Part shown: positions 2,036-22,037 of the stretch, piece by piece
How the letters are laid out: the number at the start of each line of letters is the position of its first letter
How positions within the stretch are numbered: the stretch's first letter is position 1
From: Candidatus Auribacterota bacterium
GTDB taxonomy: Bacteria; Auribacterota; Tritonobacteria; UBA1439
Reading direction: 5' to 3'
Assembly (NCBI GenBank): GCA_026392015.1
Contig: JAPLCW010000130.1
Coordinates: 1 to 42,330, forward strand
DNA: 42,330 bases
Program-made: the position numbers and the translations under genes
Notes under the pieces: model-generated
The model's database searches: none
What the model was told of the DNA's origin: nothing
Seen by the model: the letters and a program-made list of their open reading frames with translations, nothing else

Positions 2036-5000
2036 CTACGGATTAGGAGGGATCGCCTCAGGGGCTTTTACAATCTCCATGTCTCTCAGTACATCACTCC
2101 CGGGCCAGAGCCCCGTGCTTATAAAAGGCTCCACAAGCCCTATCGGGTGAATCACACCCGTCCCATCGGCCAGATATATGCCGACTACATTACCACTATC
2201 ATCTTTTACCAACTTGATCTTTCTTGCAATATCCTTTCCGGCGAAATAGGGCGCGGGATAGCCGGCGCGCGTGATCTCCTCAACCGTCGGCACGTTGCCC
2301 ACTGCGTGTATGCCTCCGAACCCGTCCAGAACATAATATCCGTTCACTGTCCCTGTTCCTTCATCGAATACAACCTCCAGGTCACGTGCTATATTCATAT
2401 TCGGCCAGTAGGGGCAGCCGCTGAAGGCGGGTAGGCGAACAGCTGGGTACGGATGCACTGCCCCATATGCATCGAGGATGTAGTAGCCCAGAACTTCATT
2501 CCCCGCGGACACCAGCTCTATATCCTTGGCCATGTCGCTCCCCGTGCCCCAGTCGGGGTTTCCGTATGTTGCTCCGGTGGAGAACACAATTCCCCTGCTG
2601 AGAAGCACGTAAAGACTGTCAAATGCTGGGCTGAGACCCATCTCTCTTGAAGGGACCCGCGCGGGAGTCCCGCCGCCGAATCTTCTCGGGACGGCGCCCA
2701 CCTCGAACACACGCCCCTGGCAATCAAGAACATAATATCCTTTCACTCCTCCCGCTGAATCCGTAACGACTTTCATGTCGCGATAGCGATCCTGGCCCGA
2801 TGCGTACGGCGCGCACCCTTGCGGCAGCGCGATCGGCGCGTCCTCAAGCCGGTGGGCCGGAAAAACAGCGCCGCATTTGTCCAGTATGACTATACCGGAT
2901 ATCCTGCTTGACGCTGCCTCACCAAGATCGGATATCCCGATAGCGTCCGCCACGACCTTGCCGTCGGCATACGCATTGCTCAGCCGCAGTTTGTATATCC
3001 CTTGCTTCATCGGTGCGCGCATCAGAAAATTCCATCTGCCCCCGCCTGATCGCTGATCGACGGTCGTGTTTGCCAGCCGCTGCGTGTAGTTATTGTTCCA
3101 AAGCTCGAACGGCGCATTAGGGGCTCTACCTGAGCCCTGTGGGTGCCGCTCATAGATATCATACAAACCATCCATGGGCATAGCCAGCACCCATGTAGCC
3201 ACATGGTGGACCTGTTGGTCCGCCCTGAGAGTCCTGTTCCATGCGGGAGCAAGATGACAGCTGCCGCCGTATGCTCCGGCTTCATTCAGGATGCCCCAGT
3301 TTATACCGCTTCTGGAGGTTGCGAAAGCAGCCTGTGGATCATCCATTATGCGCGCCTCATACGCCCCGATGTCAATTTCCAGGCCTGTTTTGCGCGGATT
3401 CCCATCGGGATCGGTATCCCCGGTTGCGACATAGCTGGACGTCCCCTTATCAATGCATGGCGAATCAAATCTGAGGCGGTAGTTGTCCTTCGAAATGAAA
3501 CGCGGGTCAGCGTTGATATTCCCCTCCCCCTGCCACCCGCCTCGGATACAGGAGTAGCCGGCAACATGATCCACTATTTGGGGGTCTGTGCGTAACTCTC
3601 CGTTTGTATTGCCCCAGAAAACCGAGTTGACCACTATTGGATAATCGTAGAAGGTTGAGAAATCAGCATTTGAAAAGTACACGCCCCCGCCCGACTGAGT
3701 AGCGGCATTGTCCGCTACGGTATCATTTACCAGATATGGACCATTCTCGGGGTAAGTACCATCAAAATCAGCATACACACCGCCCCCGTATGCTGCGGAG
3801 TTTAGGGCTATCAGATTGCTGCTGTAGCTCGACTGCGATACTGCATCGTAAATTCCCCCCCCCACGCCGCCAGCCCTATTATGAACTATGCTATTGCCCA
3901 CCGCGTTCAAATCAAGTGTATCCGTGTAAATACCCCCGCCTTCCTCGCCTGCTATATTTTCGCCAACCATATTCCCGGCTATCTTTGCGCTGTAATATGG
4001 CCAGCGATGAGAGCTTCTTCCGAGCTCTTCAAAGAACATGCCCGCACCGCGAACAGCGGAGTTTCCCCATATTTTATTCCCGACAATGAGCGGCATAGCC
4101 CAGTTACAGTATATGCCTCCTCCATTAACCGCGGAATTTCCTGTTATTATATTGTCAGCTATGGTCGGGTAGGACAGTACGCATTTGATTGCACCACCAT
4201 TTGCTATGCCCTCTGTATTTCGGATGGTAAAGCCGCGGATAATGGAATCACGTAGTTCACTTGAGCAGAAAATAACCGCGCTCCTTCCTTGTCCCTCAAT
4301 GATGGTGTTGCCCACGACAGCCTCATCTGATGGATCGGTACTCCGTACCGTAACCGCCAGGCCGTTGAAATTGATACTCTCACGATAGATGCCCTGGCTT
4401 ACTATGATCTCATTCCCCGCCCGACAATCTGGGTCGTTGAGCGCATCCTGGATACGGCTGTATGGTTTCTGCTCAGTCCCGTACCCGCATCCTGCGATGT
4501 TGCGCCCGTCCACGAAGAAACGAGTATCAGAGGCGCTGTGTCGTGGATTGCTGCCGGCGAGGAATTCGTGGAGGTTACTTATCCCGTCCCCGTCCGCGTC
4601 TCCCGAGCTGTCGGATGGATCATGCGGGTCAAAACCCCACCGCTCTTCCCATAAATCCGCCATACCGTCGCCATCACTATCGGCCAGCGGATTCAATATG
4701 AGATTGCAGGGGAGCCGGCGTTCGTTACGAGAGGCTTCTCCTTCCCTATCGGATACCTGGATTGAGATAATCTTCGTGCTGCAGAATTTTCCATCATCAG
4801 CCTTGATGATAACCTCCATCGGCTCATGATAAGGAGCATTATCTCCCGCATAGTCTCTGGTCCAGTTCACATCCAGTGAATCCGGGGTGAAAGTGAATTG
4901 CCCGCTCGCCGGATCAAATGTGCTGTTATAGAGCGGTGTGGTGCTGAGTGTCACGGGATCCCCATCCGGATCGGTAGCGGTTATCGTCGCGGTATAGGTC

Positions 5001-6649
5001 CCCCCCTCGATCACAGATGCACAGTATCTGTTATAGTCTTCTCCATTAACATTTATGATAGGCAATCTATTGGTGGCCCGTGAATTATAGGTTGTGAGCA
5101 CGATGGCGAAATTGCTCACAACCCCCGCGCCCATTGCGGTATTGCATTCCGACGCCTCGACGAAATGATACTCAAAGGTATCATCGAATCCAAGCTCCAC
5201 TACCAGAACCGGATTATCAAAGGGGAGGGGGCACTTATAGGAGAAGAAATCATCGACGGAGGACCATGGATTGTTTACATTTATTCCTCCCCACCAGCTC
5301 CGCTCGGTAACGTGCGGGAATTTCCAGATCCCCTGTGAGTCGGTGACGCCGATGAACTTCGGAATATCCCGTATCACGGAAACGCCGCCGGGCGGTGCAG
5401 ACTCGCGCTGGAATACCCGAATGCTGCAATTCGGAACCGGCGATCCGTCTGCCTGCCGAACGACAAGGTTTATATCACCCTGCGGGACGGCCCCGAGGTA
5501 GTCGCCATAAAAACCGCGCCTGAGCCCATAGTTACGGTTGAGTCCAGCGACGCTTCCTGGTTCTAAATATTGAGTATTATCCGCCATCAGGCCGCGTGGA
5601 GTCCTATCCACGAGCGCTTGCCCTCCTGCATGCGTCATCCTAGTGCTGCCGTAGTACACTATCCCTCTTTCAATCACTGGCATAAGTTCCGTCCCTGCCA
5701 CCCTCCCCCTGCCGGGAAGGGTGATGAGACAACGATCGATAGTTGTGTCAAAATTATATATATCCACAAGACCGATCTGGTGCCCTAATTCATGCATAAG
5801 CGAGTTCTCAATAATCTTGGCATAGGAGGATATCTTGGTTTCATTCCATTCAGTAAAGCAGAATCCCCATGCGCCATCAGTATGGCGGACATAATCTCCG
5901 ATCGGGGTATGGCCCCCTCCTGTGTCGAGTGTTCCGTCCGGGACCACCTGCACCATATCAAGCCTGATCTTCTGCGGGCAGCCCGAAGCCCTTAACCTCC
6001 TCTCGAGCCCCATAAGCTGCATTTGGCACCAATCCTCGGCGGAACGACTTTCCAGATAATTCTTTCGAGCATTAAAACGTGTATAGGTGGTCTCGTCCAT
6101 GTACATCCAGAAGTAGAGCGCATTGATGTAATCCTCAATCGAATTGTTGAGCTCACATTCCTCCGCTATAGTATGTTCCGGATCCAGCTCGAAGCGGATC
6201 CGATGGTCGCCGACCGCGCGTTCGTATTGCCTCAATTGCAGCTCCATCGCCCCGGCAGGGATGTCGATCAGGCATACAGTGTCGACGGGCCAGGGAGATG
6301 AGTACGAGAGTTCTATTGAATCGTCTCCTGCCGGTAGAAAGCTAATTATCCCCTCACGAACCTGTACATCATCAAAGTACCATCGATAGAGGATATTTGA
6401 GACGTCCTCATCTCCCTTGTTGAATACATGTGCAGTATAGGTGACCAAGTCTTCAGGTTTCGGCCATTTCTGCTCATTTTGCATACCGCCTTTGATATGT
6501 TGATCCCCGTCAAATGAAACATCAAACCTGTTGTACAAAGGCGTGCGGCTGATGAAACCAACATCGAGATCCGGCATGGAGTAGGCAAAAGAGAAGTTGA
6601 GCGCCAGGACTGCGATGATCGAGGAAATGGCCTTTAGCAACGTATTCAT
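2036..6649 (-). CDS. Giant secreted metzincin-like protease with beta-helix, golvesin-type domain and C-terminal five-repeat module
   Basis: A 1537-aa exported multidomain protein. In order: signal peptide 1-24; CARDB-like beta domain about 62-175; a zinc-protease-like region with HELGHQIGLVD at 286-296, fitting HExxHxxGxxD with H286, E287, H290 and D296, followed by a possible Met-turn GLMA at 353-356; a carboxypeptidase-regulatory-like segment 392-450; a cadherin/He_PIG-like Ig domain 530-632; calcium-binding DxDGDG thrombospondin-3-like repeats 655-702; a parallel beta-helix ending in a choice-of-anchor-Q block 710-1100; a golvesin-type domain 1107-1245; and five degenerate repeats of about 50 residues (1250-1530) built on 'RDIE.V...G.YVLD..G.IH..G'. 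The start has AGGAGG six bases upstream. A sigma54-like element lies 70 bases upstream. The protease assignment rests on the motif alone; the fold has not been tested. Confidence 0.8.
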   Translation of the reverse strand: MNTLLKAISSIIAVLALNFSFAYSMPDLDVGFISRTPLYNRFDVSFDGDQHIKGGMQNEQKWPKPEDLVTYTAHVFNKGDEDVSNILYRWYFDDVQVREGIISFLPAGDDSIELSYSSPWPVDTVCLIDIPAGAMELQLRQYERAVGDHRIRFELDPEHTIAEECELNNSIEDYINALYFWMYMDETTYTRFNARKNYLESRSAEDWCQMQLMGLERRLRASGCPQKIRLDMVQVVPDGTLDTGGGHTPIGDYVRHTDGAWGFCFTEWNETKISSYAKIIENSLMHELGHQIGLVDIYNFDTTIDRCLITLPGRGRVAGTELMPVIERGIVYYGSTRMTHAGGQALVDRTPRGLMADNTQYLEPGSVAGLNRNYGLRRGFYGDYLGAVPQGDINLVVRQADGSPVPNCSIRVFQRESAPPGGVSVIRDIPKFIGVTDSQGIWKFPHVTERSWWGGINVNNPWSSVDDFFSYKCPLPFDNPVLVVELGFDDTFEYHFVEASECNTAMGAGVVSNFAIVLTTYNSRATNRLPIINVNGEDYNRYCASVIEGGTYTATITATDPDGDPVTLSTTPLYNSTFDPASGQFTFTPDSLDVNWTRDYAGDNAPYHEPMEVIIKADDGKFCSTKIISIQVSDREGEASRNERRLPCNLILNPLADSDGDGMADLWEERWGFDPHDPSDSSGDADGDGISNLHEFLAGSNPRHSASDTRFFVDGRNIAGCGYGTEQKPYSRIQDALNDPDCRAGNEIIVSQGIYRESINFNGLAVTVRSTDPSDEAVVGNTIIEGQGRSAVIFCSSELRDSIIRGFTIRNTEGIANGGAIKCVLSYPTIADNIITGNSAVNGGGIYCNWAMPLIVGNKIWGNSAVRGAGMFFEELGRSSHRWPYYSAKIAGNMVGENIAGEEGGGIYTDTLDLNAVGNSIVHNRAGGVGGGIYDAVSQSSYSSNLIALNSAAYGGGVYADFDGTYPENGPYLVNDTVADNAATQSGGGVYFSNADFSTFYDYPIVVNSVFWGNTNGELRTDPQIVDHVAGYSCIRGGWQGEGNINADPRFISKDNYRLRFDSPCIDKGTSSYVATGDTDPDGNPRKTGLEIDIGAYEARIMDDPQAAFATSRSGINWGILNEAGAYGGSCHLAPAWNRTLRADQQVHHVATWVLAMPMDGLYDIYERHPQGSGRAPNAPFELWNNNYTQRLANTTVDQRSGGGRWNFLMRAPMKQGIYKLRLSNAYADGKVVADAIGISDLGEAASSRISGIVILDKCGAVFPAHRLEDAPIALPQGCAPYASGQDRYRDMKVVTDSAGGVKGYYVLDCQGRVFEVGAVPRRFGGGTPARVPSREMGLSPAFDSLYVLLSRGIVFSTGATYGNPDWGTGSDMAKDIELVSAGNEVLGYYILDAYGAVHPYPAVRLPAFSGCPYWPNMNIARDLEVVFDEGTGTVNGYYVLDGFGGIHAVGNVPTVEEITRAGYPAPYFAGKDIARKIKLVKDDSGNVVGIYLADGTGVIHPIGLVEPFISTGLWPGSDVLRDMEIVKAPEAIPPNP

Positions 6650-6713: not shown

Positions 6714-6735
6714 TAGGTAGCATAAACCATGCCAA
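6714..6735 (-). promoter_or_regulatory. Sigma54-like -24/-12 promoter for the large metzincin gene
   Basis: Read on the minus strand the core is TGGCATG-N4-ATGCT. It fits the sigma54 consensus TGGCACG-N4-TTGCW with GG and GC in the right register (12 bases apart) and two mismatches. It ends 70 bases before the ATG at 6649. Twenty of 22 positions are identical to the element at 8751-8772 upstream of the second metzincin gene. A sigma70 reading would need TATGCT as a poor -10. Confidence 0.5.
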
Positions 6736-6834
6736 GAGATAAGATCAGCTAAAAATTAAATTCGGCGCTATTTACTTCCAGTGGAGGCTAATAGCACTAG
6801 AGAATATCCATATTATTTAGGATTTATGCCCTAA

Positions 6835-6849
6835 GGGTACTTGGTACCC
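6835..6849. promoter_or_regulatory. Palindrome at enhancer distance from the sigma54-like element
   Basis: GGGTAC-TTG-GTACCC is a perfect 6+3+6 palindrome about 100 bp upstream of the -24 box of the minus-strand gene, where sigma54 activators typically bind. A second small inverted pair, ATTGGG/CCCAAT, follows at about 6866-6886. No identical site was seen upstream of the other sigma54-like element, so the role is speculative. Confidence 0.25.
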
Positions 6850-7018
6850 ATTATTTAAGTACCTGATTGGGTATTTATTGCCCAATTTCTAATAAGAATT
6901 GTCTGACAAAAGACTTATTGGCATTCCCAATGAAATAAGGTTTTGTAATAGGATAGGCATCTAACCTGGATTATTCATTAGAAGCATAAAAGAGCAATTT
7001 AAATGGATCAAAGTAAGC

Positions 7019-7115
7019 AACCGCGGATTTCGCGGATTGGGCGGATTACAAACAAGAATCCGCGTAATCAGCGTAATCCGCGGTGAAGACATTAAAAGTT
7101 GATAAATAGATCAGG
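7019..7115. repeat. CCGCGGATT palindromic element, copy 1 (short form)
   Basis: Two arms made of degenerate 9-10 bp units of the type NCGCGGATT face each other (7021-7047 and 7056-7083). They are followed by a one-sided tail that reads, on the minus strand, ATCTATTTATCAACTTTTAA. The same arm-plus-tail layout recurs at 18849-18943, and in expanded form at 29913-30072 and 32217-32410. It lies in the 6650-7352 gap. Confidence 0.75.
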
Positions 7116-7352
7116 TTAAGACTGAGAATGTGTGAAAAAATCCGGAATTCCATCTCTTTCTGAGAAGCATAGGTTGTAGGGGGCAGTTCGGGTAAAACTT
7201 GTCCTGTCGAAGACCCAGAGCGAAGTCGAAGGAACCCTGCCGCAGGATTCGACCCCTGCACAACGATTTTTTCACAGCTGCTGACCCCTTATGGCACTCC
7301 CGCTCTTGCCCCGGAGTATCCGTATCCGGGGAAGGCGGCAGGGCCGGGAGAA
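7116..7352. other. Non-coding gap with a degenerate TTCGAC-type repeat
   Basis: No convincing gene is seen. The part at about 7190-7285 (AACTTGTCCTGTCGAAG, then GAAGTCGAAGG, ending in GACCCCTTA) resembles the segment at 28300-28412. Both carry an AACTTGTCCTG or CAGGACAAGTT block, a CGAAGTCGAAG-like block and a final GACCCCTTA. They may be copies of one decayed dispersed repeat. Confidence 0.35.
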
Positions 7353-8228
7353 TTACTGTCCTTTTGCCGTGGGGGTCACGCCCTTTAACGGGACCGGGGC
7401 TACGCCGGCGAGTTCCCCGATGATATTGATGAGTTCCGTCTGTGAGGGGATGACGACCTTGGCGTTGTGCATGAGTGACTTTTCAACAGCCTCGAGCTTG
7501 CGGAGAATCTGCGCGTTGCCCACGAAATACTCTTGCGCCGCCTCGTTGACGAGGCGGATTGCCTGGGCCTCGCCCTCCGCCTGGAGGATCTTGGATTGTT
7601 TTATCCCCTCCGCCTGTTTGATCTGGGCTCTTCGCTGACCATCCGCTTCCGTTTCCGTCGCGGTCGCAAAATCAATCGCGGCGATCTTCTCGTTCTCCGC
7701 TTTCACCACTTTATTCATCGTCTCTTGAACGTCCTTGGGGGGATCGATCTCCTTGAGCTCCGTCCGCACGACATCGATGCCCCAATGCGAGGTCTCATTA
7801 CAGAGCGTCCTGAGGAGCTCCTCGTTGATCTTGCCCCGCTCGCTGTTCGCGGATTTAAGGGTAAGCGTACCGATGATATTTCTCAGGGTCGTTCGCGCGA
7901 GGTTGACGATCTGATACTGGTAGCTGAAGACGTTGTATTGCGAGCTCTTCACACTCTCCTCGTCCGCCTTCACCTTGAAATATACCTGTGCGTCCACGCG
8001 GGCGTTCAGGTTGTCGTTGGTGATGATCTCCTGGGGCTGGGCATCCACCATCTGCTCGGTTATGTTCACCTGGTACATCCGGTAGACCACAGGGAATATC
8101 CAGTGGAAACCGGGGGTGGCAAAATGGCAATACTTTCCCAGGCGCTCGATCAGGCCGCGATGCGTGGGCCTGATGATCCTGACGCCGCTGAAGAAGATGA
8201 CCAGAGCGATAATAATAATGAAAACCAT
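7353..8228 (-). CDS. SPFH/band-7 (stomatin-like) membrane protein
   Basis: A 291-aa protein of the stomatin/prohibitin/flotillin/HflK superfamily. These are anchored in the inner membrane, oligomerise, and act as scaffolds or regulators of membrane proteases and lipid domains. It has one N-terminal hydrophobic segment (residues 2-17), the stomatin-type stretch RPTHRGLIERLGKY, a band-7 domain to about 190 including the 'GIDVVRTELKEIDPP' region typical of stomatins and QmcA, an Ala/Glu-rich coiled coil (about 195-250), and a short hydrophobic C-terminus. I chose the ATG at 8228 because AGGAGG sits five bases upstream and a good sigma70 promoter at 8275-8303 lies behind it. The longer upstream frame would begin ahead of that promoter. 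No NfeD-like partner is next to it. Confidence 0.9.
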   Translation of the reverse strand: MVFIIIIALVIFFSGVRIIRPTHRGLIERLGKYCHFATPGFHWIFPVVYRMYQVNITEQMVDAQPQEIITNDNLNARVDAQVYFKVKADEESVKSSQYNVFSYQYQIVNLARTTLRNIIGTLTLKSANSERGKINEELLRTLCNETSHWGIDVVRTELKEIDPPKDVQETMNKVVKAENEKIAAIDFATATETEADGQRRAQIKQAEGIKQSKILQAEGEAQAIRLVNEAAQEYFVGNAQILRKLEAVEKSLMHNAKVVIPSQTELINIIGELAGVAPVPLKGVTPTAKGQ

Positions 8229-8274
8229 GAGAGCCTCCTTCCTGTTCTTACTGATTGTTATTGCTACCCGGAGC

Positions 8275-8303
8275 ATTGTAGCGCCTTGGAGGCAAAAATT
8301 CAA
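8275..8303 (-). promoter_or_regulatory. Sigma70-type promoter of the SPFH gene
   Basis: On the minus strand, TTGAAT (8298-8303), a 17-base spacer and TACAAT (8275-8280) precede the ATG at 8228 with a leader of about 40 bases. The MITE at 8324 is inserted about 20 bp upstream of the -35 box. Confidence 0.6.
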
Positions 8304-8323
8304 AGTGGAAAATTTGCACAACA

Positions 8324-8504
8324 GTAAGGGGTCACTTATGGGTGGTATCCATTTCGCTTGTCATCCCGGCACTTCGACTGCGCTCAGTGTAAACTCGAGC
8401 GGGGATCCATTATAAAACCTGGATTCCTGCTGGAGCTTACCCTCGTGAAAACGGGGGCAGGAATGACATATTCAGCAATGTACCACCCATAAGTGATCCA
8501 TTAC
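8324..8504. mobile_element. IS66-type MITE, copy 1 (181 bp) with 8-bp target duplication
   Basis: The element begins GTAAGGGGTCACTTATGGGT and ends in the near-complementary arm ACCCATAAGTGATCCATTAC. It is flanked by perfect 8-bp direct repeats GCACAACA at 8316-8323 and 8505-8512. Termini starting GTAA together with 8-bp duplications are the hallmarks of the IS66 family. It carries no transposase. Compared with copy 2, both internal hairpins have enlarged, different loops, and the right terminal repeat has three changes. About 240 bases of featureless sequence follow before the next promoter. Confidence 0.85.
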
Positions 8505-8750
8505 GCACAACATCATCTGCCTTGGGCCGAAGAATTGTGCCTGGGTACCATATATGGGGCATTGAGTTGGGGACTGGGTAGTTATAGCACTTGGGCCCGG
8601 TCAGCCCTTGTGGATACAAACTACCCCAAAAGCCATACTATCATTGAGTATTCAGTATCCTTCCAGAATTTATAATGAATTCCTCACAAATGTGCAGGTT
8701 GTAACTCATTCAAAGCCAGGATGATAAAATTATAGCCTTAGATACGGCCT

Positions 8751-8772
8751 TTGGCATGGATTATGCTAGCTT
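8751..8772 (+). promoter_or_regulatory. Sigma54-like -24/-12 promoter for the 8887-15912 gene pair
   Basis: TGGCATG (8752-8758), GATT, ATGCT (8763-8767) matches the sigma54 consensus with correct GG-to-GC spacing. It lies 120 bases upstream of the ATG at 8887. The match to the element upstream of the other metzincin gene extends beyond the consensus on both sides. No dyad upstream activator site was convincing here. Confidence 0.5.
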
Positions 8773-8886
8773 ACTATAATTGAGGACGTATGCCGTACAT
8801 TTCAGTCTATGTGACTGGAGATGTGCGATAGATAGTTTTTTCAGTCTGTTTCTCAAACTCGGCTTCTCCATAAAAGCGAGGTGGCC

Positions 8887-11800
8887 ATGAAGGTCAGAAC
8901 ATTCTGTGGTATGGCGGAGGCGGCGGTATTAATTGGGTGGAGCCTCGCCGCATTCGCAGAGTCGCTTCCACCGGACGGTGGTTCACATAACCAGTTCGAT
9001 CCGAGTATGATGCGGGAAGGAAGTCCGCTTCCGGGTGCCGGTTATCCCTGGGAACGTGTTGTGCCGATCAAAGCCGAAAAGCAGGCCACAACGTCTCGCC
9101 CTGACGGCATTGATCTTGATGTCACCTATATCAGCCGGGAGCCGAGGTATAAAAGATATGATGTCCCCTCCTTTCGTATCCCGCAACTGAAACCGGGGAC
9201 GGAGAACGACAAGCGCTGGCCGGATCACGGCGAGGCCGTGGCATTCACCGCCCATTTCAAGAACAGTGGGACAAGTACAAGTCCTCCATTCAAGTATAAG
9301 TGGTTGATAGACGGGAGGGAGGTTGTTCCTGCATCGTTTTTTCCCCAAATGGAACCATCCGTCGAGGGCACCTCTATTTTATGGTGGAACTGGGCGCACA
9401 TGATGGATGGCGAACGTGTTGTGGACGATCATACCGTGCAGTTTATTGTAGATCCGGACAACCTTGTCCCCGAGACGTGCGAGACGAATAATAGTCTGGA
9501 GGATCGCACAAACGCACTGTCTCTTCGCATCGTCATGACGCCGGAGATGTACGCAAAATATAGTGTCCCCGCGGCCCCGGCTCTGCCCTGCTCCGCTGAG
9601 GACTGGCTCCAGAAAAACATCGCCGCAATGAATTGGGCCTTCGCCAATTCCGTATACGACTGTGCGCCCGATGGAGCCACCGAGCGGGTGAGAATAGACT
9701 CGATTGAAATATCCTCCCGCGCTCCCCATGTTGACCTTGCGTTTGACGGCGGTTGGTTTGTCAATGCCGACTACCGACACGTGAGCGCCTTCTATGATCC
9801 CGCCACTGACATCGACTGGGGCTTTGCGCATGAGCTGAGTCATCAGGTAGGTCTGATAGACCTCTATGCATCGAATCTCTTCGATGTCGATGTACGAGTG
9901 CTCGATCGTGAAGGGATGCCCGCCAACTTCGGCTTTATGTGGCCCCGCGGGGACCTCATGGAGGGAGGAGATATCGCGCCGCATACAGATCATCACCTCT
10001 ATTCCAGTCACAGCGCCTGTGGCATCTCGTCAAACAAGGGGTACAGACGAGGCTATATTGGAGAATATCAATTTGACATCCCCCGCGAAAACTATCTGCG
10101 CGTCCTGGACGTGCGAGGCAATCCGGCACCGGGCGTACGGGTGGATATCTACCCGCAGGCGGGTGTGTATCCCAATCAAGAAACGTACATCAATAACAGT
10201 CCCGTGATCAGCGGCATCGCCGACTACGATGGTATTTTTCACCTTCCCAACCGTTCAGTAAATGGCGGCATAACAACCCGCACGGGCCATACTTTTCGGG
10301 ATAATCCGTTCGGAGCTGTGAGTGTGGCAGGCGATAATAACCGTTTTCTTGTGAAGCTCAGCAGGGAGGATCATGAAGAGTTCGATTGGATGGATATCAC
10401 CGAATTCAACCTTGCATACTGGAGCGGCGATACGGAAAGCCATACGTTCACAATCAACTCTCACATTCCGACATATGGTCTGCGTGGACCTGGGACAGTA
10501 TCCGCGAAGGTGGAAGGATCGAAGGCGACGCTGAGCTGGAGCCCCGGTCCTCCGCCGGCGGTCTCAGGTTACTATGTGTACAGGGCCGCGCCCCCGATTT
10601 ACCGATATGAGAGAGTCAGTAATATTGTGTACGGGTTAAGCTATACAGATGTCTATAATGACAAGCGTATTTACGCGGTGACGGCGCTAGATGGTAATGG
10701 GGAGGAAAGCGGGTTCAGTAATTTTGTATGGGCGCCATGTCTCTCAAGCCCCACCTCGGTGGACATCGCCCCCGATGGCACAAGGGTCATTCTTGACCAT
10801 ACAGTATTGCTCCAGCGGCCAGACGGAAGATACATTCGGAACTTCGGGAGCCCGCACTATGACCTTTCTTCCGCGGAGTTCATGGCTATGGATAGCCAGG
10901 AGCGCTTTCTCTTTAATTATGATGAGGCGCATGGCGTGGGCCGCCAGTTCGTGCGCTTCGCCCGAGGTGCTCTCCAGAGCATTTATGATTTTGGCTCGCG
11001 TGGCTCCGGGAATGGGCAATTTCGCTCTCCGGCGGCTATCGCGGTGCGCGGCGATCCATGCGATTGGATGGGGTATAGCGAAGATACGACATGCGATTAC
11101 CGCATTCTCGTGGCCGACAGCAGCAACAACCGTATCCAGGTGCTTCACGAGCCGGTATTTGACGAGTATCTGGAATTTTTAAGCGCATACGGTGGCTACG
11201 GGCAAGGCCCGGGACAGTTTAATTATCCGCGGGGACTTGCGGTAGCAGGCCTCGGCATGGTTATAGTCGCCGATTCCGGAAATGACCGTCTCCAGGTCCT
11301 GTCCTTTGATGGCACTGACTTTAGCTTCATCCGCGAGATCACGGGTGATCTTTATAGCCCTACTGCGGTGGATGTATACGGTTCGGATAAAATTATTGTA
11401 GCCGATACCGGGAATAACGCGATTAAGGTTTTCGATATGGAAGGGAATCTCCGTTCGCACTATACCTTGCCCAACGACGGTTGTTACAGAGGCCCATTCA
11501 ATCAGCCTACGGGAGTTACCGTAGACCGGAATGGCAATATCATAGTCGCTGATACAGGTAACAAGCGCGTGGTTTCCATCCTGAATGCGCTGCCGCCCTT
11601 ACCCACACCGACGCGTACCCCCACATCTACTCCTACTCATACGCCGACGACGACGCCCACATCTACTCCCACGAGCACGCCGACAATTACCCCCACGACC
11701 CCGCCGCTTCCGTCCTACATCATAGACAATACGGACATCGCCGGTTTCAGAGTGACAGGCGCGTGGACATCGGGAGCTGCATCGTCCCAGAAATACGGGA

Positions 11801-12585
11801 GTGACTATGGATACCACGCGGTGAACGCCTCTTCCGACACCGCGCAGTGGGCCGCGAATGTGGAAGCGGGCGTGTATGAAGTGTACGTCTGGTATCCAAC
11901 GGGCACCAACAGGAGCGCCGATGCGCAGTACATTGTTCAGGATAGCCGCGGGGCGTATTCGTATTACGTCAATCAGCAGGCGAACGGTGGAGGATGGCGC
12001 AGGCTGGGAACGCAATTCCGCTGTTCCGGGAGCACCACCGTCACGCTTACGGCGCGGGGTTCGGACACAAGCCGGTATGTCATCGCCGATGCGATAAAAC
12101 TGGTTATGATCTCCAGGGATCTTGCCCCGACGCCGACCCCCACTCGTACCAATGTTCCCACCCCTCCGCCTCTTCCGTCCTACATCATAGACAATGCGGA
12201 TGCCGCCGGCTTCAAAGCGACGGGCGCGTGGACATCGGGAGCTGCATCGTCTCAGAAATACGGGAGTGACTATGGGTACCACGCGGTGAACGCCTCTTCC
12301 GACACCGCGCAGTGGGCCGCGAATGTGGAAGCGGGCGTGTATGAAGTGTACGTCTGGTATCCAACAGGCACCAACAGGAGCGCCGATGCGCAGTACATTG
12401 TTCAGGATAGCCGCGGGGCGTATTCGTATTACGTCAATCAGCAGGCGAACGGGGGAGGATGGTGCAGGCTGGGAACGCAATTCCGCTGTTCCGGGGGCAC
12501 CACCGTCACGCTTACGGCGCGGGGTTCGGACACAAGCCGCTATGCCATCGCCGATGCGGTGAAGCTGGTGATGGTCGCGAGGTAA
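8887..12585 (+). CDS. Secreted metzincin-like protein with NHL propeller and two golvesin-type domains
   Basis: Exported protein of 1232 aa, paralogous over its first ~400 residues to the 1537-aa protein. Numbered from the GTG at 8881: signal peptide to about 27; CARDB-like domain about 112-215; HELSHQVGLID at 317-327, again HExxHxxGxxD (H317, E318, H321, D327), with a possible Met-turn DLME at 358-361; a carboxypeptidase-regulatory-like segment about 404-460; fibronectin type III domain about 533-615; an NHL-type six-bladed propeller about 700-900 with ADSGNDR and ADTGNN signatures; a Thr-Pro-rich linker 906-944; golvesin-type domain 946-1077; second linker; near-identical golvesin-type domain 1100-1232. 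I prefer the ATG at 8887 because GCGAGG lies just upstream; the GTG two codons earlier is possible. It probably binds or processes a surface polymer. The next gene starts 123 bases on and may be cotranscribed. Confidence 0.8.
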   Translation: MKVRTFCGMAEAAVLIGWSLAAFAESLPPDGGSHNQFDPSMMREGSPLPGAGYPWERVVPIKAEKQATTSRPDGIDLDVTYISREPRYKRYDVPSFRIPQLKPGTENDKRWPDHGEAVAFTAHFKNSGTSTSPPFKYKWLIDGREVVPASFFPQMEPSVEGTSILWWNWAHMMDGERVVDDHTVQFIVDPDNLVPETCETNNSLEDRTNALSLRIVMTPEMYAKYSVPAAPALPCSAEDWLQKNIAAMNWAFANSVYDCAPDGATERVRIDSIEISSRAPHVDLAFDGGWFVNADYRHVSAFYDPATDIDWGFAHELSHQVGLIDLYASNLFDVDVRVLDREGMPANFGFMWPRGDLMEGGDIAPHTDHHLYSSHSACGISSNKGYRRGYIGEYQFDIPRENYLRVLDVRGNPAPGVRVDIYPQAGVYPNQETYINNSPVISGIADYDGIFHLPNRSVNGGITTRTGHTFRDNPFGAVSVAGDNNRFLVKLSREDHEEFDWMDITEFNLAYWSGDTESHTFTINSHIPTYGLRGPGTVSAKVEGSKATLSWSPGPPPAVSGYYVYRAAPPIYRYERVSNIVYGLSYTDVYNDKRIYAVTALDGNGEESGFSNFVWAPCLSSPTSVDIAPDGTRVILDHTVLLQRPDGRYIRNFGSPHYDLSSAEFMAMDSQERFLFNYDEAHGVGRQFVRFARGALQSIYDFGSRGSGNGQFRSPAAIAVRGDPCDWMGYSEDTTCDYRILVADSSNNRIQVLHEPVFDEYLEFLSAYGGYGQGPGQFNYPRGLAVAGLGMVIVADSGNDRLQVLSFDGTDFSFIREITGDLYSPTAVDVYGSDKIIVADTGNNAIKVFDMEGNLRSHYTLPNDGCYRGPFNQPTGVTVDRNGNIIVADTGNKRVVSILNALPPLPTPTRTPTSTPTHTPTTTPTSTPTSTPTITPTTPPLPSYIIDNTDIAGFRVTGAWTSGAASSQKYGSDYGYHAVNASSDTAQWAANVEAGVYEVYVWYPTGTNRSADAQYIVQDSRGAYSYYVNQQANGGGWRRLGTQFRCSGSTTVTLTARGSDTSRYVIADAIKLVMISRDLAPTPTPTRTNVPTPPPLPSYIIDNADAAGFKATGAWTSGAASSQKYGSDYGYHAVNASSDTAQWAANVEAGVYEVYVWYPTGTNRSADAQYIVQDSRGAYSYYVNQQANGGGWCRLGTQFRCSGGTTVTLTARGSDTSRYAIADAVKLVMVAR
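11704..12582 (+). repeat. Recent in-frame tandem duplication of a golvesin-domain segment
   Basis: The segment from about 11704 recurs at a 465-base offset (155 codons), for example TACATCATAGACAAT at 11716 and 12181. Most of the roughly 410 bases match with only scattered changes, including R-to-C in NGGGW(R/C)RLG and V-to-A in SRY(V/A)IAD. Each copy is preceded by a Thr-Pro linker. Confidence 0.9.
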
Positions 12586-12708
12586 GCCTCTCCCGAGGTA
12601 CGGTGGGGCAAGGTGGAATCGTAGAGCAGACCGCTTCGATGATGATTGCCGACAAAAGAGGAGTAGCTCAATGACGTGCAAACGCCGTGTGCGGAGGGGG
12701 ATCCTATT

Positions 12709-15700
12709 ATGAAGAGAAGCAGCCGGTTATTCTTTATTCCGGGTATAGCCTGTGGGGCCATCTTCACTCTCATTCATTGCCAAACGGCCGCCGCGCGGGA
12801 ACTCGTGGTCGACGCGAGTGGTGAGGAGGAGTACAGGATTATCCAGGAAGCGATTGACGATGCCTCACCCGGAGATGTCGTAAAGGTGAAGAGTGGAAGG
12901 TACAGGGATTATTTTATAAGAAACATACCCGGGCATGGCAATGTATGGGGGGCTGTTTTCCTTAAAAGCAATGTATCTGTTATAGGAGAGGGCGCGGACG
13001 ATACCGTTATTGAGGGGGTTATGCCATATTCGAGTACCGTACCGACGCAGAATCTGGGCGTTGTCAACGCATTCGGCGCTGATGGGGCGAGGCTTAGCGG
13101 TTTTACCATAGTTGCGTATAGTGATGAGATCTATACTTTTTCCGGAGCTTATGGAGTCTATGGAGAGCATTCAGACAATTTAATCATCGACAATAACTTT
13201 ATTGACGGAAGGCGCAACACAGGCACATGCAGGTGCTTCGATGGGGCGATCAGGCTTTTGGGATGCAATGCCAGTATCTATAGAAATACATGTTACTGGC
13301 TCGATTCGGTTGGCATAGAGCTGAGGGGATGGGATATCTCTCACATCTATAATAATACTCTATACGGGCATACTGAGGATGGGATGCCTTACGCAATGTA
13401 CGGTATGGACCTGGCAGGCGGAAGCTCTCCTCATATTTGGAATAACATTATTGCGGGATATAAAAGCGGTATAGGGATTTCCTCTGACTCGAGCATTGTA
13501 AGCGGGTCGAGAAGCAACAATTTCTGGAACTGCGGCCGTAAATATTCCGACAATAGGAGCGGCGATGATGATCTGGAAACCAATCCGGTATTCATCGACA
13601 ATCCGGAGTGGGTCTTCAACGAGAAGCTGAACCTCGGTTTGAAAAACGGTTCTCCCCTCATAGATCGAGGAGCTATGATTTCTGGTCTGGTCTACGCCGG
13701 CAGCGCCCCGGAAGTGGGCGCATACGAAAAAATGGAAGGGGATGCCGGAAGCTGCATTGTGGATGATGGTTCGGAGAATTATTTTGAAAGCGGATCCGGA
13801 TGGACAGGCGGCAACGCCAGTCCCGGCTATTACGGGTCTGGCTATAGATATCATGCGGGTGGCGCAGCTTCCGCGTCTGCCCGATGGTCTTATCCCGGAA
13901 CTATTCCCTTCTCCGGTGTTTATGAGGTCCGGGTGATCTGGTCCGCAGGATCGAATCGGGCAACTAACGCGCCCTATGAAGTCATGATAAACGGTACTCC
14001 TCATCAGACATTGAGGGGGGAACACGGATACGACCAGCGCTCCGCCGGCGGGCAATGGCACACCCTCGGGGCATATACGCTGGATGTGGGAGACAGCCTT
14101 GCAATAAGGCTCCGATGTAACGCGAACAATTATGTTATCGCCGATGCCGTAAGATTCTTATTCAAGGGGGATAATTTCAGCGGGCCGATCATCGTGGATA
14201 ATTCAAACACCGATGCGTTCCTCATATACGGCGATGGCTGGAGCAGGGGCAGTGCCCCTGTTCCCTATGGCAGCGATTATCTCTACCATGTCACGACTGC
14301 GCGAGGAGACGAGAGTAACTTTGCTCTCTGGTCCGCGATAGCTCCGGTGGAAGGCGATTACGTGGTGTGGGCGTACTGGGTGCCCGGCCAGAATCGCACT
14401 GCGGATGCAACCTACCTTGTGGAGGGAGGAAATAGCGTTGCAGAAGTCGGGGGTAATCAAACGGTTGCCGGATGCACATGGAACCGTCTTGATGAACTCA
14501 CGAATGTGCAGAAAAACCAAAAGATGGATGTCTCCCTATTCACCGGGTCGTCTCATGCCGGCTCCTATGTTATTGCCGATGCGGTAATGTTTGTATACAA
14601 GGACCCTTCCATGGATTATATAGTGGACGACGCTGATGCGGGTTTTGAGTTATATCCGCCGGCCGGCTGGACGCGGGACAGCCTGAGCCCGAATAGATAC
14701 GGGCCTTGCCGCCGGTATTCTCTTAAGGGTGACGGCGAAAATTATGCCGTGTGGACCGTGAACATCGAGGAGGCGGGCTGGTATGAACTCTACGTCTGGT
14801 ATACCGGGTCTTCCAATAACACGAGCACAGCGTGTTATGAGTTTTGGGAGGGAAGGTATGCATCGCTGATAGGCCGGAAATGCATGAATCAGCGCGTAAC
14901 CGGCGGGCCATGGAACCGCATCGGCGAATACATGCTACAGCCCGGGATGTACACATCCCGCCTTTCTAACACGCATGCCGATGGGTATGTCATCGCCGAT
15001 GCCTTTGGATTGAAAAGAAGGCGCATTGGTGTTCCATTTTCCTATGGTGTATACGGGCTGGTTACCCTCGATAAATGTGGTGCTGTTTTTATGGCGCACA
15101 CGGAGGGAAGATCACCAATCCCTCTTCCCTCAGGCTACCCGCCCTATTGTCCCGGCCAGGACCGGTACAGGGATATCGAAGCGATTGTGGATTACCTTGG
15201 GAACTTTATCGGCTATTACGCCTTGAGCGGGGATGGGCACGTATACGGGGTTGGCCGCACACCGGCCGGCATAGGGCAGGATCTCGCAGCTCCCGGTCCT
15301 GCCGCCGCCCTGAAACTCAACCGGACGGGGGACGGGCTCTATGTTCTTCTGAATAACGGCTCCGTATGGGCGGAAGGCTCAAATGCTCCTACCTTCGGTT
15401 ATCCCGAATTGGCGGGAGGAAATCAAGCCCGAGATATCGAGCTCGTACACAAGAACGGTAGGGTAGCGGGCTATTATATTCTCGATTCCTATGGCCAGGT
15501 CTACGCGTACCCGGAAGGGGCGCTGCCGTTGTTCGAGGAGGGCCCGATCTGGGCCGGACAGGATAGGGCGCGGGATCTGGAGATAGTATATGACGGTACG
15601 ACGGGTGTGGTGAGCGGATATTACGTGCTGGATGGATGGGGCGCTATTCGTGCGCGGGGGAATGTTCCTTCTGTTGCGGAAATTACCAGAATAGGATATG

Positions 15701-15912
15701 AGGCGCCGAATTTCGGATGGGACATCGCCCGGAAAATAAAGCTTATCAAGAATAGAGAAACAGAGGTAACAGGAATCTATCTATGTGATGGGACTGGGGT
15801 GATCCATCCCATAGGGCTTGTAGAACCTTTTATCAATACGGGGTTATGGCCGGGCAGCGATATTATCAGAGGCATGGACATTGTCGGGGATTCTTTTAGA
15901 GCCCTTCGCTAG
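12709..15912 (+). CDS. Secreted beta-helix protein with three golvesin-type domains and C-terminal five-repeat module
   Basis: An exported 1067-aa protein. In order: signal peptide 1-29; a beta-helix about 32-340 that opens with a DUF1565-like segment (IIQEAIDDASPGDVV) and closes with an anchor-Q-like DRG...EVGAYE; three diverged golvesin-type domains about 348-487, 492-640 and 645-772, each ending in a (Y)VIADA motif; then five repeats of about 50 residues (774-1067) homologous to the C-terminus of the 1537-aa protein. The last ~90 residues are very close to it, including the shared DGTGVIHPIGLVEPFI. The start is placed at the ATG at 12709, with GGAGGGGG 9 bases upstream, rather than an in-frame GTG at 12676 lacking a ribosome site. 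No catalytic motif was found; a carbohydrate-binding or surface role is likely. No clear terminator is seen in the 126 bases before the convergent next gene. Confidence 0.8.
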   Translation: MKRSSRLFFIPGIACGAIFTLIHCQTAAARELVVDASGEEEYRIIQEAIDDASPGDVVKVKSGRYRDYFIRNIPGHGNVWGAVFLKSNVSVIGEGADDTVIEGVMPYSSTVPTQNLGVVNAFGADGARLSGFTIVAYSDEIYTFSGAYGVYGEHSDNLIIDNNFIDGRRNTGTCRCFDGAIRLLGCNASIYRNTCYWLDSVGIELRGWDISHIYNNTLYGHTEDGMPYAMYGMDLAGGSSPHIWNNIIAGYKSGIGISSDSSIVSGSRSNNFWNCGRKYSDNRSGDDDLETNPVFIDNPEWVFNEKLNLGLKNGSPLIDRGAMISGLVYAGSAPEVGAYEKMEGDAGSCIVDDGSENYFESGSGWTGGNASPGYYGSGYRYHAGGAASASARWSYPGTIPFSGVYEVRVIWSAGSNRATNAPYEVMINGTPHQTLRGEHGYDQRSAGGQWHTLGAYTLDVGDSLAIRLRCNANNYVIADAVRFLFKGDNFSGPIIVDNSNTDAFLIYGDGWSRGSAPVPYGSDYLYHVTTARGDESNFALWSAIAPVEGDYVVWAYWVPGQNRTADATYLVEGGNSVAEVGGNQTVAGCTWNRLDELTNVQKNQKMDVSLFTGSSHAGSYVIADAVMFVYKDPSMDYIVDDADAGFELYPPAGWTRDSLSPNRYGPCRRYSLKGDGENYAVWTVNIEEAGWYELYVWYTGSSNNTSTACYEFWEGRYASLIGRKCMNQRVTGGPWNRIGEYMLQPGMYTSRLSNTHADGYVIADAFGLKRRRIGVPFSYGVYGLVTLDKCGAVFMAHTEGRSPIPLPSGYPPYCPGQDRYRDIEAIVDYLGNFIGYYALSGDGHVYGVGRTPAGIGQDLAAPGPAAALKLNRTGDGLYVLLNNGSVWAEGSNAPTFGYPELAGGNQARDIELVHKNGRVAGYYILDSYGQVYAYPEGALPLFEEGPIWAGQDRARDLEIVYDGTTGVVSGYYVLDGWGAIRARGNVPSVAEITRIGYEAPNFGWDIARKIKLIKNRETEVTGIYLCDGTGVIHPIGLVEPFINTGLWPGSDIIRGMDIVGDSFRALR

Positions 15913-16038: not shown

Positions 16039-18840
16039 TTAGACTTCGATCCCGAGGCGCTTGAGCATTCGCGCAAGGCCTTTGCGGCTCACGCCCAATT
16101 CCTCGGAGGCTTTTGTCTGGTTCCCGTTCCACTTTGCGAGGGCTTTGATAATCATCTCTTTTTCGAGAACCTTGACAGTTTCCTTAAGGTTGAGGCTCTC
16201 TACGGAGAGCTTCTCCAGGAGTTGGGCTCCCTCCTCTCCGGAAATTTTGGGCGAGAGGTCTTTTGTTGTCAGCATTTCGTCGTCGTCGGCCATGACCATC
16301 GCTTTCTCGATCTCGTTCTCCAGTTCCCGCACATTGCCGGGGAATCTGTATGCCATAAGCCTGCCCATAGCCTCCCTGCTGATCCCCTTGATGTTTTTCT
16401 TCGACGATTTGCTCATGGTTTCAAGAAAGTGCGCTGCGAGGAGCGGGATATCCTCTTTTCTCTCCCTGAGCGGCGGGACATGGATGGTGAAGGCGTTCAG
16501 CCTGTAGTAGAGATCCTCCCTGAATCTGCCCTCCTTTACCTCCGTTGCCAGATCCTTGTTCGTGGCGGATATGATCCTGAGATCGACACTCTTTTCCTGC
16601 ACGCTCCCCAGCGGACGCATCACCCCTTCCTGGAGCACCCGGAGAAGTTTGGCCTGGAGAGACGGCGTCATGTCGGCGACCTCGTCGAGAAAGATGGTCC
16701 CCCCGTCGGCGATTTCGAACAGTCCCTTCTTGTCCTGAACGGCCCCCGTAAATGCCCCCCGCTTATGCCCGAAGAGTTCGCTCTCCAGGAGGGACTCCGC
16801 CAGGGCCGAGCAGTTCTGGGCAACGAACATGGCGTCCTTCCGGGGCCCCTTAAAATGGATTTCCTTGGCGATGAGTTCCTTGCCCGTCCCTGTCTCTCCC
16901 TCGATGAGCACGGCGATGGTGGATGCGGCAGCCTTATCGATCAGGTCGAGCACCTTGTGCAGGATGGGGCTATTCCCCAGGATATAGCGTGACCTCTGCA
17001 GGGTGGCGCGCACCTCTTTCTTTAAATAGAGATTCTCTGTTCGCAGGTGCTCATCCTCCTGCCGGAGCTTGGAGTAAATCCCCGCGTTCTCCAGGGCAAT
17101 CGCAGCTTGTGTCGCGAATGAATCGATGACCTTGATGTCTTCGTCCCAGAGATGATAGCCGGGGTGATCTCTCTCCATATAGATGATCCTCATCTGCGTT
17201 TTCCTGTGCACAATCGGCAGGCAGAAGATCGCGCGCGGGCGAATGGAATGGTCTCCCTCGAGAAATGAGGGGGTCTTTCCTTTCGGCAGATGGTTAATCA
17301 CCAACGGATGCCTCTCCGCCGCGACCCTGGAGATGATCTCTTTGCCGTAGGCGAAGTGATCGCTGTCTATGAGCGCGACGGGCATCCCCACCGCGCACTC
17401 GATGCGCAGCTCATGGTTTTCCTCCCCGCCGTCCCCGCAGGTGAACAGCGCACCCCTGTCGGCGCCCACCGCGCTGATCATTGACTCGAGAATTGCGGGG
17501 CACAACTCGTTGATGTCCAGGACGCCGCTGATCGCGGCGCTCATCTCTGACACGGATCTCCTGAGTTTTTTCGCGCGACGCTCGTGGACAACCCCGGTAT
17601 GGATGGAAAGCGCAAAGTAGGATGAGAAGATGGCGAGGAGCGGATAGATGGTGTTGGATTGGATGCCATGGGCAGAGAACAGGTATTGGTTGGATATAAG
17701 GAAAATTGCAATGAAGACGAGCGCGACGCCGAGGCCGAGGAGTGACCTCCCTGCGCGCGGAAAGAAAAGAGCCATGAGGAGCGGGAGAAAGATGATGCAG
17801 AACGCGGTGATTGCGGCGCCTTCCGTTGACTCGGTGAGGTAGCGCGCGTGCAGCATGTTGTCGATGCAGGTGGCCTGAAGCTCCACGCTGGGGAGTGCCG
17901 CGTAGAAGGGGGTGATGCGTGTCTCGAAATCCCCGCTGCTGGTTCCTCCTATGAGCACCGCCTTATCCCGGATGAGATTCTCCGGGACATCGCCGGCGAG
18001 GATCTTCCACGCCGGAACCGATCTGAAGGTCTGTGGAGGGCCATAATAGTTAATGAACATCTGTCCCATCCCATCCGTGGGAATCTTCAGAGGACCGACC
18101 TCGAGGTAGAGGGCGTGTTTCCCGACGAGGATGACCCGCGGATTTTTTGCATTGCAATACTGCTTCAGCGCGGCGGTTGCGAAGCTCTGATAAATATTGT
18201 TTCCCGATTGGACGAAGAGCGGAATGCGGCGCACGAAGCCGTCGTTCTCGAGCTGGACATTGTAGTACCCGCTTGCAGCCGCGACCGCGGTAATGGCCGG
18301 GGTGTTCAGCTCCAGCCCGAGCACCTCGAGGAGGTTCGGTTTTATATCCTCTCCGGAGATGTTGGTGAGCACCGGAATCCTGAATGGGCGCAGGAGATCA
18401 AGGGATTTTTCAAATAGCTCGCGTGATTGAAAAGTGGACTCCTGCGGGGTGAAGCTTACGTAGTACGCGAGCACAACGTTCCCGGCATCTTTCATGGCCT
18501 GGATGAGTTCGAGATCGGCAATTGGGTCAGGCGACGGGAATGAGAAGAGGATATCGATGCCTATGAGCTTCGCTCCCTTTCCGGAGAGATTCCTGATCAA
18601 CCGGGCGAATATTTTCCGGTCCCAGGGCCACTTCCCGACATTGTCCAGGCTCTTCCGGTCAATGGCGATGAGGGTGATCTCATCGCCGGGCCTGAGGTGA
18701 CCGCGAATTCTGAATTTGGCGTCGATGCATTTGAACTCGAGCTGCTGGAGGGCGTAGGGTTTGAGAAAATAGAGTGCGAAGGCGGCGATGATTATCGCGC
18801 CCGCAATGCACAGTCTTGTCTTGAGCATGTTTCCGGCCAT
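16039..18840 (-). CDS. CHASE2-GAF sensor fused to a sigma54-dependent activator (AAA+, Fis-type HTH)
   Basis: A 933-aa one-component regulator. Residues 8-27 are a membrane segment, followed by an extracytoplasmic CHASE2 sensor (about 33-335) and three membrane helices (342-412). A cytoplasmic GAF domain (about 440-585) and a short coiled coil come next. The AAA+ core has Walker A GETGTGKE (648-655), an intact GAFTGA sigma54-contact loop (695-700), Walker B IFLDE (716-720) and an arginine-finger region RFREDLYYRLN (772-782). A Fis-type helix-turn-helix ends the protein (about 896-930). With every catalytic element present it should remodel sigma54 RNA polymerase in response to an external signal and perhaps a GAF ligand. 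CHASE2 is more often joined to cyclases, kinases or GGDEF domains. The first ATG is used; the ATG four codons on is an alternative. No rpoN gene is in the window; targets are inferred only from the sigma54-like elements nearby. Confidence 0.93.
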   Translation of the reverse strand: MAGNMLKTRLCIAGAIIIAAFALYFLKPYALQQLEFKCIDAKFRIRGHLRPGDEITLIAIDRKSLDNVGKWPWDRKIFARLIRNLSGKGAKLIGIDILFSFPSPDPIADLELIQAMKDAGNVVLAYYVSFTPQESTFQSRELFEKSLDLLRPFRIPVLTNISGEDIKPNLLEVLGLELNTPAITAVAAASGYYNVQLENDGFVRRIPLFVQSGNNIYQSFATAALKQYCNAKNPRVILVGKHALYLEVGPLKIPTDGMGQMFINYYGPPQTFRSVPAWKILAGDVPENLIRDKAVLIGGTSSGDFETRITPFYAALPSVELQATCIDNMLHARYLTESTEGAAITAFCIIFLPLLMALFFPRAGRSLLGLGVALVFIAIFLISNQYLFSAHGIQSNTIYPLLAIFSSYFALSIHTGVVHERRAKKLRRSVSEMSAAISGVLDINELCPAILESMISAVGADRGALFTCGDGGEENHELRIECAVGMPVALIDSDHFAYGKEIISRVAAERHPLVINHLPKGKTPSFLEGDHSIRPRAIFCLPIVHRKTQMRIIYMERDHPGYHLWDEDIKVIDSFATQAAIALENAGIYSKLRQEDEHLRTENLYLKKEVRATLQRSRYILGNSPILHKVLDLIDKAAASTIAVLIEGETGTGKELIAKEIHFKGPRKDAMFVAQNCSALAESLLESELFGHKRGAFTGAVQDKKGLFEIADGGTIFLDEVADMTPSLQAKLLRVLQEGVMRPLGSVQEKSVDLRIISATNKDLATEVKEGRFREDLYYRLNAFTIHVPPLRERKEDIPLLAAHFLETMSKSSKKNIKGISREAMGRLMAYRFPGNVRELENEIEKAMVMADDDEMLTTKDLSPKISGEEGAQLLEKLSVESLNLKETVKVLEKEMIIKALAKWNGNQTKASEELGVSRKGLARMLKRLGIEV

Positions 18841-20525: not shown

Positions 20526-20534
20526 TGGATGATT

Positions 20535-20562
20535 ATTATATAACCTTCGCCCGGAAAGACAA
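20535..20562 (-). promoter_or_regulatory. Sigma70-type promoter giving a near-leaderless TPR/barrel mRNA
   Basis: On the minus strand TTGTCT (20557-20562), a 16-base spacer and a perfect TATAAT (20535-20540) are followed by only 9 bases before the ATG at 20525. Transcription would start within about 3 bases of the start codon. Confidence 0.55.
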
Positions 20563-20731
20563 ACCAAAATTCAAAGGACGAATTCAAAGATGTGGGGTAA
20601 TTCTCAGGGGCGGAATATGCTGAACGGATAGAATCCGCATATTTTCTTGTAGCAGTATCCGTGTTTCCCTAACTACTAGACATCTTCATAATCCAAAAAC
20701 TTAACAAATGAGTCAAGTTTGAGGAGAGTAT

Positions 20732-21883: not shown

Positions 21884-22037
21884 AGCATCAATCCCCCTCT
21901 CCGCTGGATTTCGCGACATTCTTCAACCATCGAATCGGCCGTAGTGTTTGTTGCATCGAGCAGCGCAACATTTACAATTTCACTTTCTCGCTATGAAAAT
22001 AGCATATATTTCAGGCAAGGCAAAGCCGCAATTCGCC

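Follow-up and report, generated by a model that had tools for sequence, protein, structure and literature searches.

A contig of a Candidatus Auribacterota bacterium, analysed here over a stretch of 42,330 nucleotides (the window), carries two large genes for secreted proteins, each preceded by nearly the same short element, and encodes a candidate sigma54 activator with a CHASE2 domain nearby. This arrangement raises the question of whether the two elements are genuine promoters and, if so, which genes share their control and which activator reads them.

Sigma54 promoters in the window and the genome

An exact-match scan of the window placed TGGCATG-N4-ATGCT at 6719-6734 (minus strand) and 8752-8767 (plus strand) and revealed no further exact copy. 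The preliminary description had reported this core in both elements, together with the GG/GC spacing of sigma54 promoters, and the sequence agrees on both points, while its count of 20 shared bases among 22 had to be lowered to 19 (6714-6735, minus, against 8751-8772, plus; mismatches at positions 10, 19, and 22). Tolerated C/T and T/A changes aside, both elements match the sigma54 consensus TGGCAYG-N4-WTGCW. The promoters and the genes that they concern are as follows.

2036-6649, minus strand: gene for a secreted 1537-aa protein, CARDB-like, with a HELGHQIGLVD metzincin-like motif, TSP3, beta-helix-like, and Golvesin_C parts
6719-6735, minus strand: sigma54 -24/-12 promoter TTGGCATGGTTTATGCT for gene 2036-6649; exact match, 23.0 bits with a PWM built from sigma54 sites of this genome
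8751-8767, plus strand: sigma54 -24/-12 promoter TTGGCATGGATTATGCT for gene 8881-12585; exact match, 24.9 bits with the same PWM
8881-12585, plus strand: gene for a secreted 1234-aa protein with CARDB, a HELSHQVGLID metzincin-like motif, an NHL propeller, and two Golvesin_C domains; likely start ATG 8887
12676-15912, plus strand: gene for a secreted beta-helix protein with three Golvesin_C domains, without a sigma54 site of its own

The two genes directly behind the elements had been described as encoding paralogous secreted HExxHxxGxxD proteins, and their products indeed share 31% identity over ~450 aa in the metzincin region, with no peptidase-family match for the HExxH proteins in Pfam or NCBIfam. 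The third gene (12676-15912) is probably transcribed by read-through from the 8751 promoter. Between the two divergent promoters lies an SPFH/Band 7 (stomatin-like) gene (7353-8228, minus strand), for which we found no evidence of regulon membership.

Beyond the window, the genome (94% complete, 216 contigs) encodes a full-length RpoN DNA-binding domain (PF04552, 216 bits, E=4.7e-64), and the strict sigma54 pattern TGGCAYGNNNNWTGCW occurs 77 times in it versus 2 times for a reversed-pattern control. Among 38 relatives the same pattern occurs 0-17 times per genome (1-8 in other family members), so that the window elements belong to a lineage-specific expansion of sigma54 promoters. The preliminary description had named an rpoN gene and a genome-wide scan for the motif as checks on its reading of the elements as sigma54 promoters; the gene is present, the pattern is enriched over its control, and, together with the -24/-12 match, these results make the two window elements almost certainly real sigma54 promoters. 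Homologues of the metzincin-motif proteins occur elsewhere in the phylum, outside the family (G019, G022, G036), and the stretches examined there contain no sigma54 site; the promoter is therefore not ancestral to this protein family, and the pair itself is missing from same-family genomes.

Nearly all strict sites have a gene downstream, and the N-termini of the products are mostly signal-peptide-like, which is a reading and not a statistic. A signal-peptide heuristic was dropped as a statistic because its baseline was too high (91/171). Two protein families, F1 and F2, dominate downstream of the strict sites. F1 proteins (>20 paralogues; e.g., L138:2468-3412, L060:1871-2947, L137:5850-10126) combine a near-constant N-terminal domain (GSIDSPGAPSxGSGMYTLxQIYDYL) and a Pro-Thr linker with a C-terminal domain that differs per copy and in some contains a fibrinogen-like GGGW; scanning the named genomes returned no relatives of the N-terminal domain outside the present one. 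F2 proteins are ~273 aa long and carry W-G-E-N repeats. The proteins of the two families are unrelated, yet the upstream cassette is common to both.

Golvesin genes and three classes of paired enhancers

A de novo EM motif search upstream of the sigma54 sites outside F1 and F2 revealed palindromes far above shuffles (LL 91.8 versus 46-50 at width 16), and these proved to be 17-bp palindromes paired at set distances upstream of sigma54 promoters, in three classes. An earlier enhancer suspect, AACT-N2-TT near -60, proved to be an A/T-rich feature of common occurrence that is less specific than these palindromes. Whole-genome figures below are pattern counts only, and PWM counts refer to 0.70 Mb chosen around sites.

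Class A (TGYAWAC-N3-GTWTRCA) has 133 exact copies in the genome, with 0 for the control and 0-1 in the 38 relatives, and its pairs stand at 62 promoters in the 0.70 Mb, 60 of them exactly 34 bp apart, the proximal copy mostly starting 129-132 bases before the -24 element. Class B (TGTTCR-N5-YGAACA) has 29 copies versus 0 in the control and forms pairs at 19 promoters, nearly all 21 bp apart and many of them for secreted proteins. Class C (approximately TGGRYA-N5-TRYCCA) is found at six promoters with a pair spacing of 33-34 bp. Classes A and C have the 34-bp spacing and an AC-N3-GT core in common, and tandem promoters of two classes occur as A with B (C156, C215, C121, C161) and as B with C (C86). 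Copies on this scale (>60, 19, and 6 promoters) suffice for a statistical reading of the enhancer code.

Several further observations concern these promoters. At L060:1871-3782, 10 bp separate an F2 gene from the F1 gene behind it, both in the same orientation, which suggests operons of F2 and F1 genes with a shared class A promoter. Many class A cassettes sit at the ends of contigs (L205 on C11, and on C3, C56, and C111), as does the sole class A site of a same-genus genome, G001 (L271, G001:C261); the assembly probably breaks or collapses at these cassettes, and the true class A copy number may be higher than counted. Sigma54 sites without class A, B, or C enhancers also exist, such as one before a type IV pilin-like gene (L142 ~4640, C7:18639) and one before a gene that encodes a ComEA-like helix-hairpin-helix protein and runs divergently to that of a GAF activator (L128, C44:1038).

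In the window, we found one class C pair at each promoter.

6834-6850, minus strand: class C palindrome, proximal copy TGGGTACCAAGTACCCT, starting 116 bases upstream of TGG; pairs with 6868-6884 at 34 bp (p=0.0005, the resampling floor)
6868-6884, minus strand: class C palindrome, distal copy TGGGCAATAAATACCCA; pairs with 6834-6850 at 34 bp
8611-8627, plus strand: class C site, distal copy TGGATACAAACTACCCC; paired at 34 bp (p=0.0005, the resampling floor)
8645-8661, plus strand: class C site, proximal copy TGAGTATTCAGTATCCT, degenerate; pairs with 8611-8627 at 34 bp

A class C PWM trained on C17, C86, C93, and C192 only, with the window sites left out, gave a 34-bp pair at both window promoters, in each case with p=0.0005, the lowest value that 2000 resamplings allow. 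The test is only partly independent, since the minus-strand window site first drew attention to class C and resemblance guided the choice of training loci. Judged by these sites, both window promoters are class C. Independent support comes from the identity over the six class C promoters, which amounts to 62% in the enhancer pairs and 72% in the -24/-12 elements versus 26-30% in the spacers. The start of the distal copy lies some 141-150 bases before the -24 element.

Linking class C to its target genes revealed a concentration on one domain. The genome has eight Golvesin_C genes (three in the window, two on C147, and one each on C93, C192, and C17), with the domain (PF25275) above the Pfam cut-off. 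A sigma54 promoter with class C sites precedes five of the eight (two in the window, C93, C192, C17), and a sixth, 12676-15912, lies downstream of a class C promoter in the same orientation. The two C147 genes have no such promoter, and their products begin, by eye, with a membrane anchor and not a secretion signal. Golvesin_C genes follow five of the six class C promoters, the remaining one (C86) driving a secreted protein that looks dockerin-like by eye. Four of the eight golvesin genes have a strict site within 500 bases upstream, with a binomial probability near 4e-8 if the strict motif density is taken as ~1e-5 per base per strand. Class C is in all likelihood a shared code for golvesin genes, which thereby gain a regulatory context for the Golvesin_C proteins; a search of largely open-access literature returned no paper linking golvesin and sigma54. 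The regulon of secreted golvesin and metzincin-motif proteins suspected at the outset, for which enrichment upstream of such genes had been suggested as a test, stands in this part, and what had not been foreseen were the paired enhancers, the three classes, and a much larger secreted-protein regulon.

The CHASE2 activator and the probable assignment of activators to classes

The candidate activator of the window belongs to a group of three genes.

16039-18840, minus strand: CHASE2-GAF-AAA+(GAFTGA)-HTH_8 membrane-anchored sigma54 activator (C213), CHASE2 at residues 18-349
19026-20567, minus strand: TPR protein gene, directly upstream of the activator gene
20876-21919, minus strand: FecR-domain protein gene, first of the FecR-TPR-CHASE2 group

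Both the intact GAFTGA loop and the CHASE2 domain that had been read from this gene were recovered, along with a GAF domain, an AAA+ domain (PF00158, 228 bits), and a Fis-type HTH (HTH_8). CHASE2 is an extracytoplasmic sensor domain and is here flanked by membrane segments, so that a direct route from membrane sensor to sigma54 is plausible. The FecR, TPR, and activator genes stand in a row on one strand, and the same trio recurs on contig C160, whose CHASE2 paralogue shares 55% identity with that of the window (C213), the HTH helices having diverged too. No class C site was found at the CHASE2 activator gene itself.

Full-length activator-like genes number 11 in the genome, or ten with a GAFTGA loop. 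The exception, among class B genes on C161, has FGILPNCV in place of the loop; it is a response regulator with a GAFTGA-less AAA domain beside a PAS histidine kinase (L082:1045-2403, 2410-3486), inside a class B promoter cluster. Orthologues of the activators of C73, C200, C44, C204, and C93 are spread over the family, in genomes that lack class A, B, and C sites, and the C102 activator has no orthologue in the family. Phylogenetically, the activators of C213, C160, and C15 form sister clades with 96/90 support.

Two relatives helped to assign these three. A first scan for palindrome pairs at other spacings near the relatives' sigma54 sites yielded none above threshold, and the pairs in G001 and G003 were afterwards found by direct inspection. 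Immediately before the C15 activator gene stands a sigma54 promoter of class B. In G001 the sigma54 promoter of the orthologue comes with two 17-bp palindromes that differ from class B in sequence (TGCTC...GAGCA) but are likewise 21 bp apart (p=0.008, for a pair picked by inspection). Self-regulation that is conserved while its code drifts would produce this picture, and class B therefore fits C15. On C160, class A sites are found at a STAS-PilZ gene. The orthologue of this gene in G003, at 41% identity, has a matching pair, AACAAAGTTATCA and GAACAAAGTA, 23 bp apart and not 34, which is about one helical turn shorter. Since the G003 gene runs divergently to the gene of a CHASE2 activator, which the tree places as the orthologue of that of C160, class A fits the C160 type. 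With class B given to C15, class A to C160, and classes A and C alike in spacing and core, class C is left for C213.

The CHASE2 protein of the window is probably the class C activator. We infer this pairing from phylogeny, elimination, and proximity, all of which favour the nearby protein that the preliminary description had taken as the activator. An activator would fall within 12 kb of a class C locus by chance with an estimated probability of ~0.3 (11 activator-like genes, five class C loci), so that proximity alone is weak evidence. Speaking against the pairing are also the missing class C site at the activator gene and the degenerate proximal site of the plus-strand window promoter. Some room is left for another activator at genuine class C promoters and sites, be it C160 reading both A and C or the response regulators C102 or C187, with the window protein a bystander. 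The related cores and common 34-bp spacing of classes A and C would suit such an arrangement, as would the absence of a C102 orthologue in the family, whereas the divergence of the two CHASE2 paralogues, HTH helices included, is in line with two site classes, and the triad C213/C160/C15 corresponds to the three classes; we consider a different activator unlikely.

A second alternative is that we are looking at the PrsK/PrsR regulon of PEP-CTERM proteins in another guise. The PEP-CTERM cis-element consists of a 17-nt motif ending TTTACA, a spacer of ~63 nt, and a sigma54 site, with PrsK, PrsR, and the TPR protein PrsT (Haft et al. 2006, PMC1569441), and RpoN dependence was shown for a PEP-CTERM gene in Aquincola (PMC9850573). 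In both systems, many single genes for secreted proteins are preceded by sigma54 promoters with a 17-nt motif for an activator, which is of the Fis type, and a TPR protein is present; Haft's motif 1 and the class A halves, moreover, both end in TTTACA. Against this, no tested activator reached the PrsR cut-off (TIGR02915, 502.6 bits; C213 333, C160 318, best C93 408), and C213 and C160 are CHASE2 one-component proteins. The distance between enhancer and -24 element is 90-99 bases in class C and ~114 in class A versus a mean of 63 (max 92). The tested target proteins (P0001, P0002, the C93 golvesin protein, and two class A family proteins) had no PEP-CTERM match in NCBIfam, none was visible in the C-termini inspected, and P0002 matched the ScyF model below cut-off and through its NHL part only. 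These differences make a PEP-CTERM regulon very improbable.

That the 22-bp element is chance or duplicated DNA between paralogues, without promoter function, is hardly credible: class A cassettes were amplified with their genes, so that copy number alone is no proof of function, but the class C spacers are far less alike than the elements they separate, sites outnumber the control 77 to 2, and the spacing is exact to the base.

Proposed mechanism and comparison with known systems

The promoters, their paired sites, the membership of the regulon, and the intact activator can be read from the DNA itself, and the model that we build on them runs as follows. Both window elements would be promoters of a small class C regulon for secreted proteins with golvesin domains, of which two also have a metzincin-like motif, and each class C promoter would be served by two 17-bp palindromic enhancers 34 bp apart. 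The membrane-anchored C213 protein most likely binds these pairs. An extracytoplasmic state would be sensed by its outer CHASE2 domain, perhaps together with the FecR and TPR proteins, and its AAA+ ring would then remodel sigma54-RNA polymerase by looping, turning on the secreted proteins. With diverged codes, the C160 paralogue would serve class A (>60 promoters, mainly two amplified secreted families) and C15, a smaller relative, would serve class B (about 19 promoters). The activator-class pairings, the external signal, and the protein functions are the parts that we infer.

Overall, we lean slightly towards a view in which much of one bacterium's secretome is controlled by a trio of related sigma54 activators. 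Two of these would be CHASE2 membrane sensors accompanied by FecR and TPR proteins, and each of the three would read its own 17-bp palindrome pair at a fixed, class-specific spacing. One cassette would have been amplified to >60 promoters, mostly of two unrelated secreted families, another would be the golvesin/metzincin regulon, and tandem two-class promoters could integrate signals. Such a system would have a CHASE2 membrane sensor acting directly as a sigma54 activator, and would offer a clean natural case of paralogous activators and enhancer sites that diverged side by side.

The weighting of the regulon to the cell exterior is shared with the picture of sigma54 as governing the outside of bacterial cells (Francke et al. 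2011, PMC3162934) and with the sigma54 regulome of D. vulgaris, where 87 promoters fall into 33 EBP regulons and the flagellar EBP, listed with the most targets, has about a dozen operons (PMC4641369). The present genome, with 10 activators of the GAFTGA type, differs in having >60 promoters in one enhancer class, mostly for two secreted families that have been amplified. CHASE2 sensory proteins (PF05226) likewise have an extracytoplasmic CHASE2 domain and FecR genes nearby, but the output here is a sigma54 AAA+ activator, and our literature search, with the scope given above, found no published CHASE2 sigma54 activator. The closest precedent is PrsK/PrsR/PrsT, which resembles the present system in that many genes for secreted proteins have a sigma54 promoter and a 17-nt site for the activator, in some cases repeated, upstream of them, and in its Fis-type activator and associated TPR protein. 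PrsK and PrsR are a kinase and a response regulator, whereas here we see a CHASE2 one-component membrane activator, three parallel site classes, a strict pair spacing (34 or 21 bp), and a FecR partner. The class A/B/C system is a new variant on this precedent and very probably not a member of the PEP-CTERM system.
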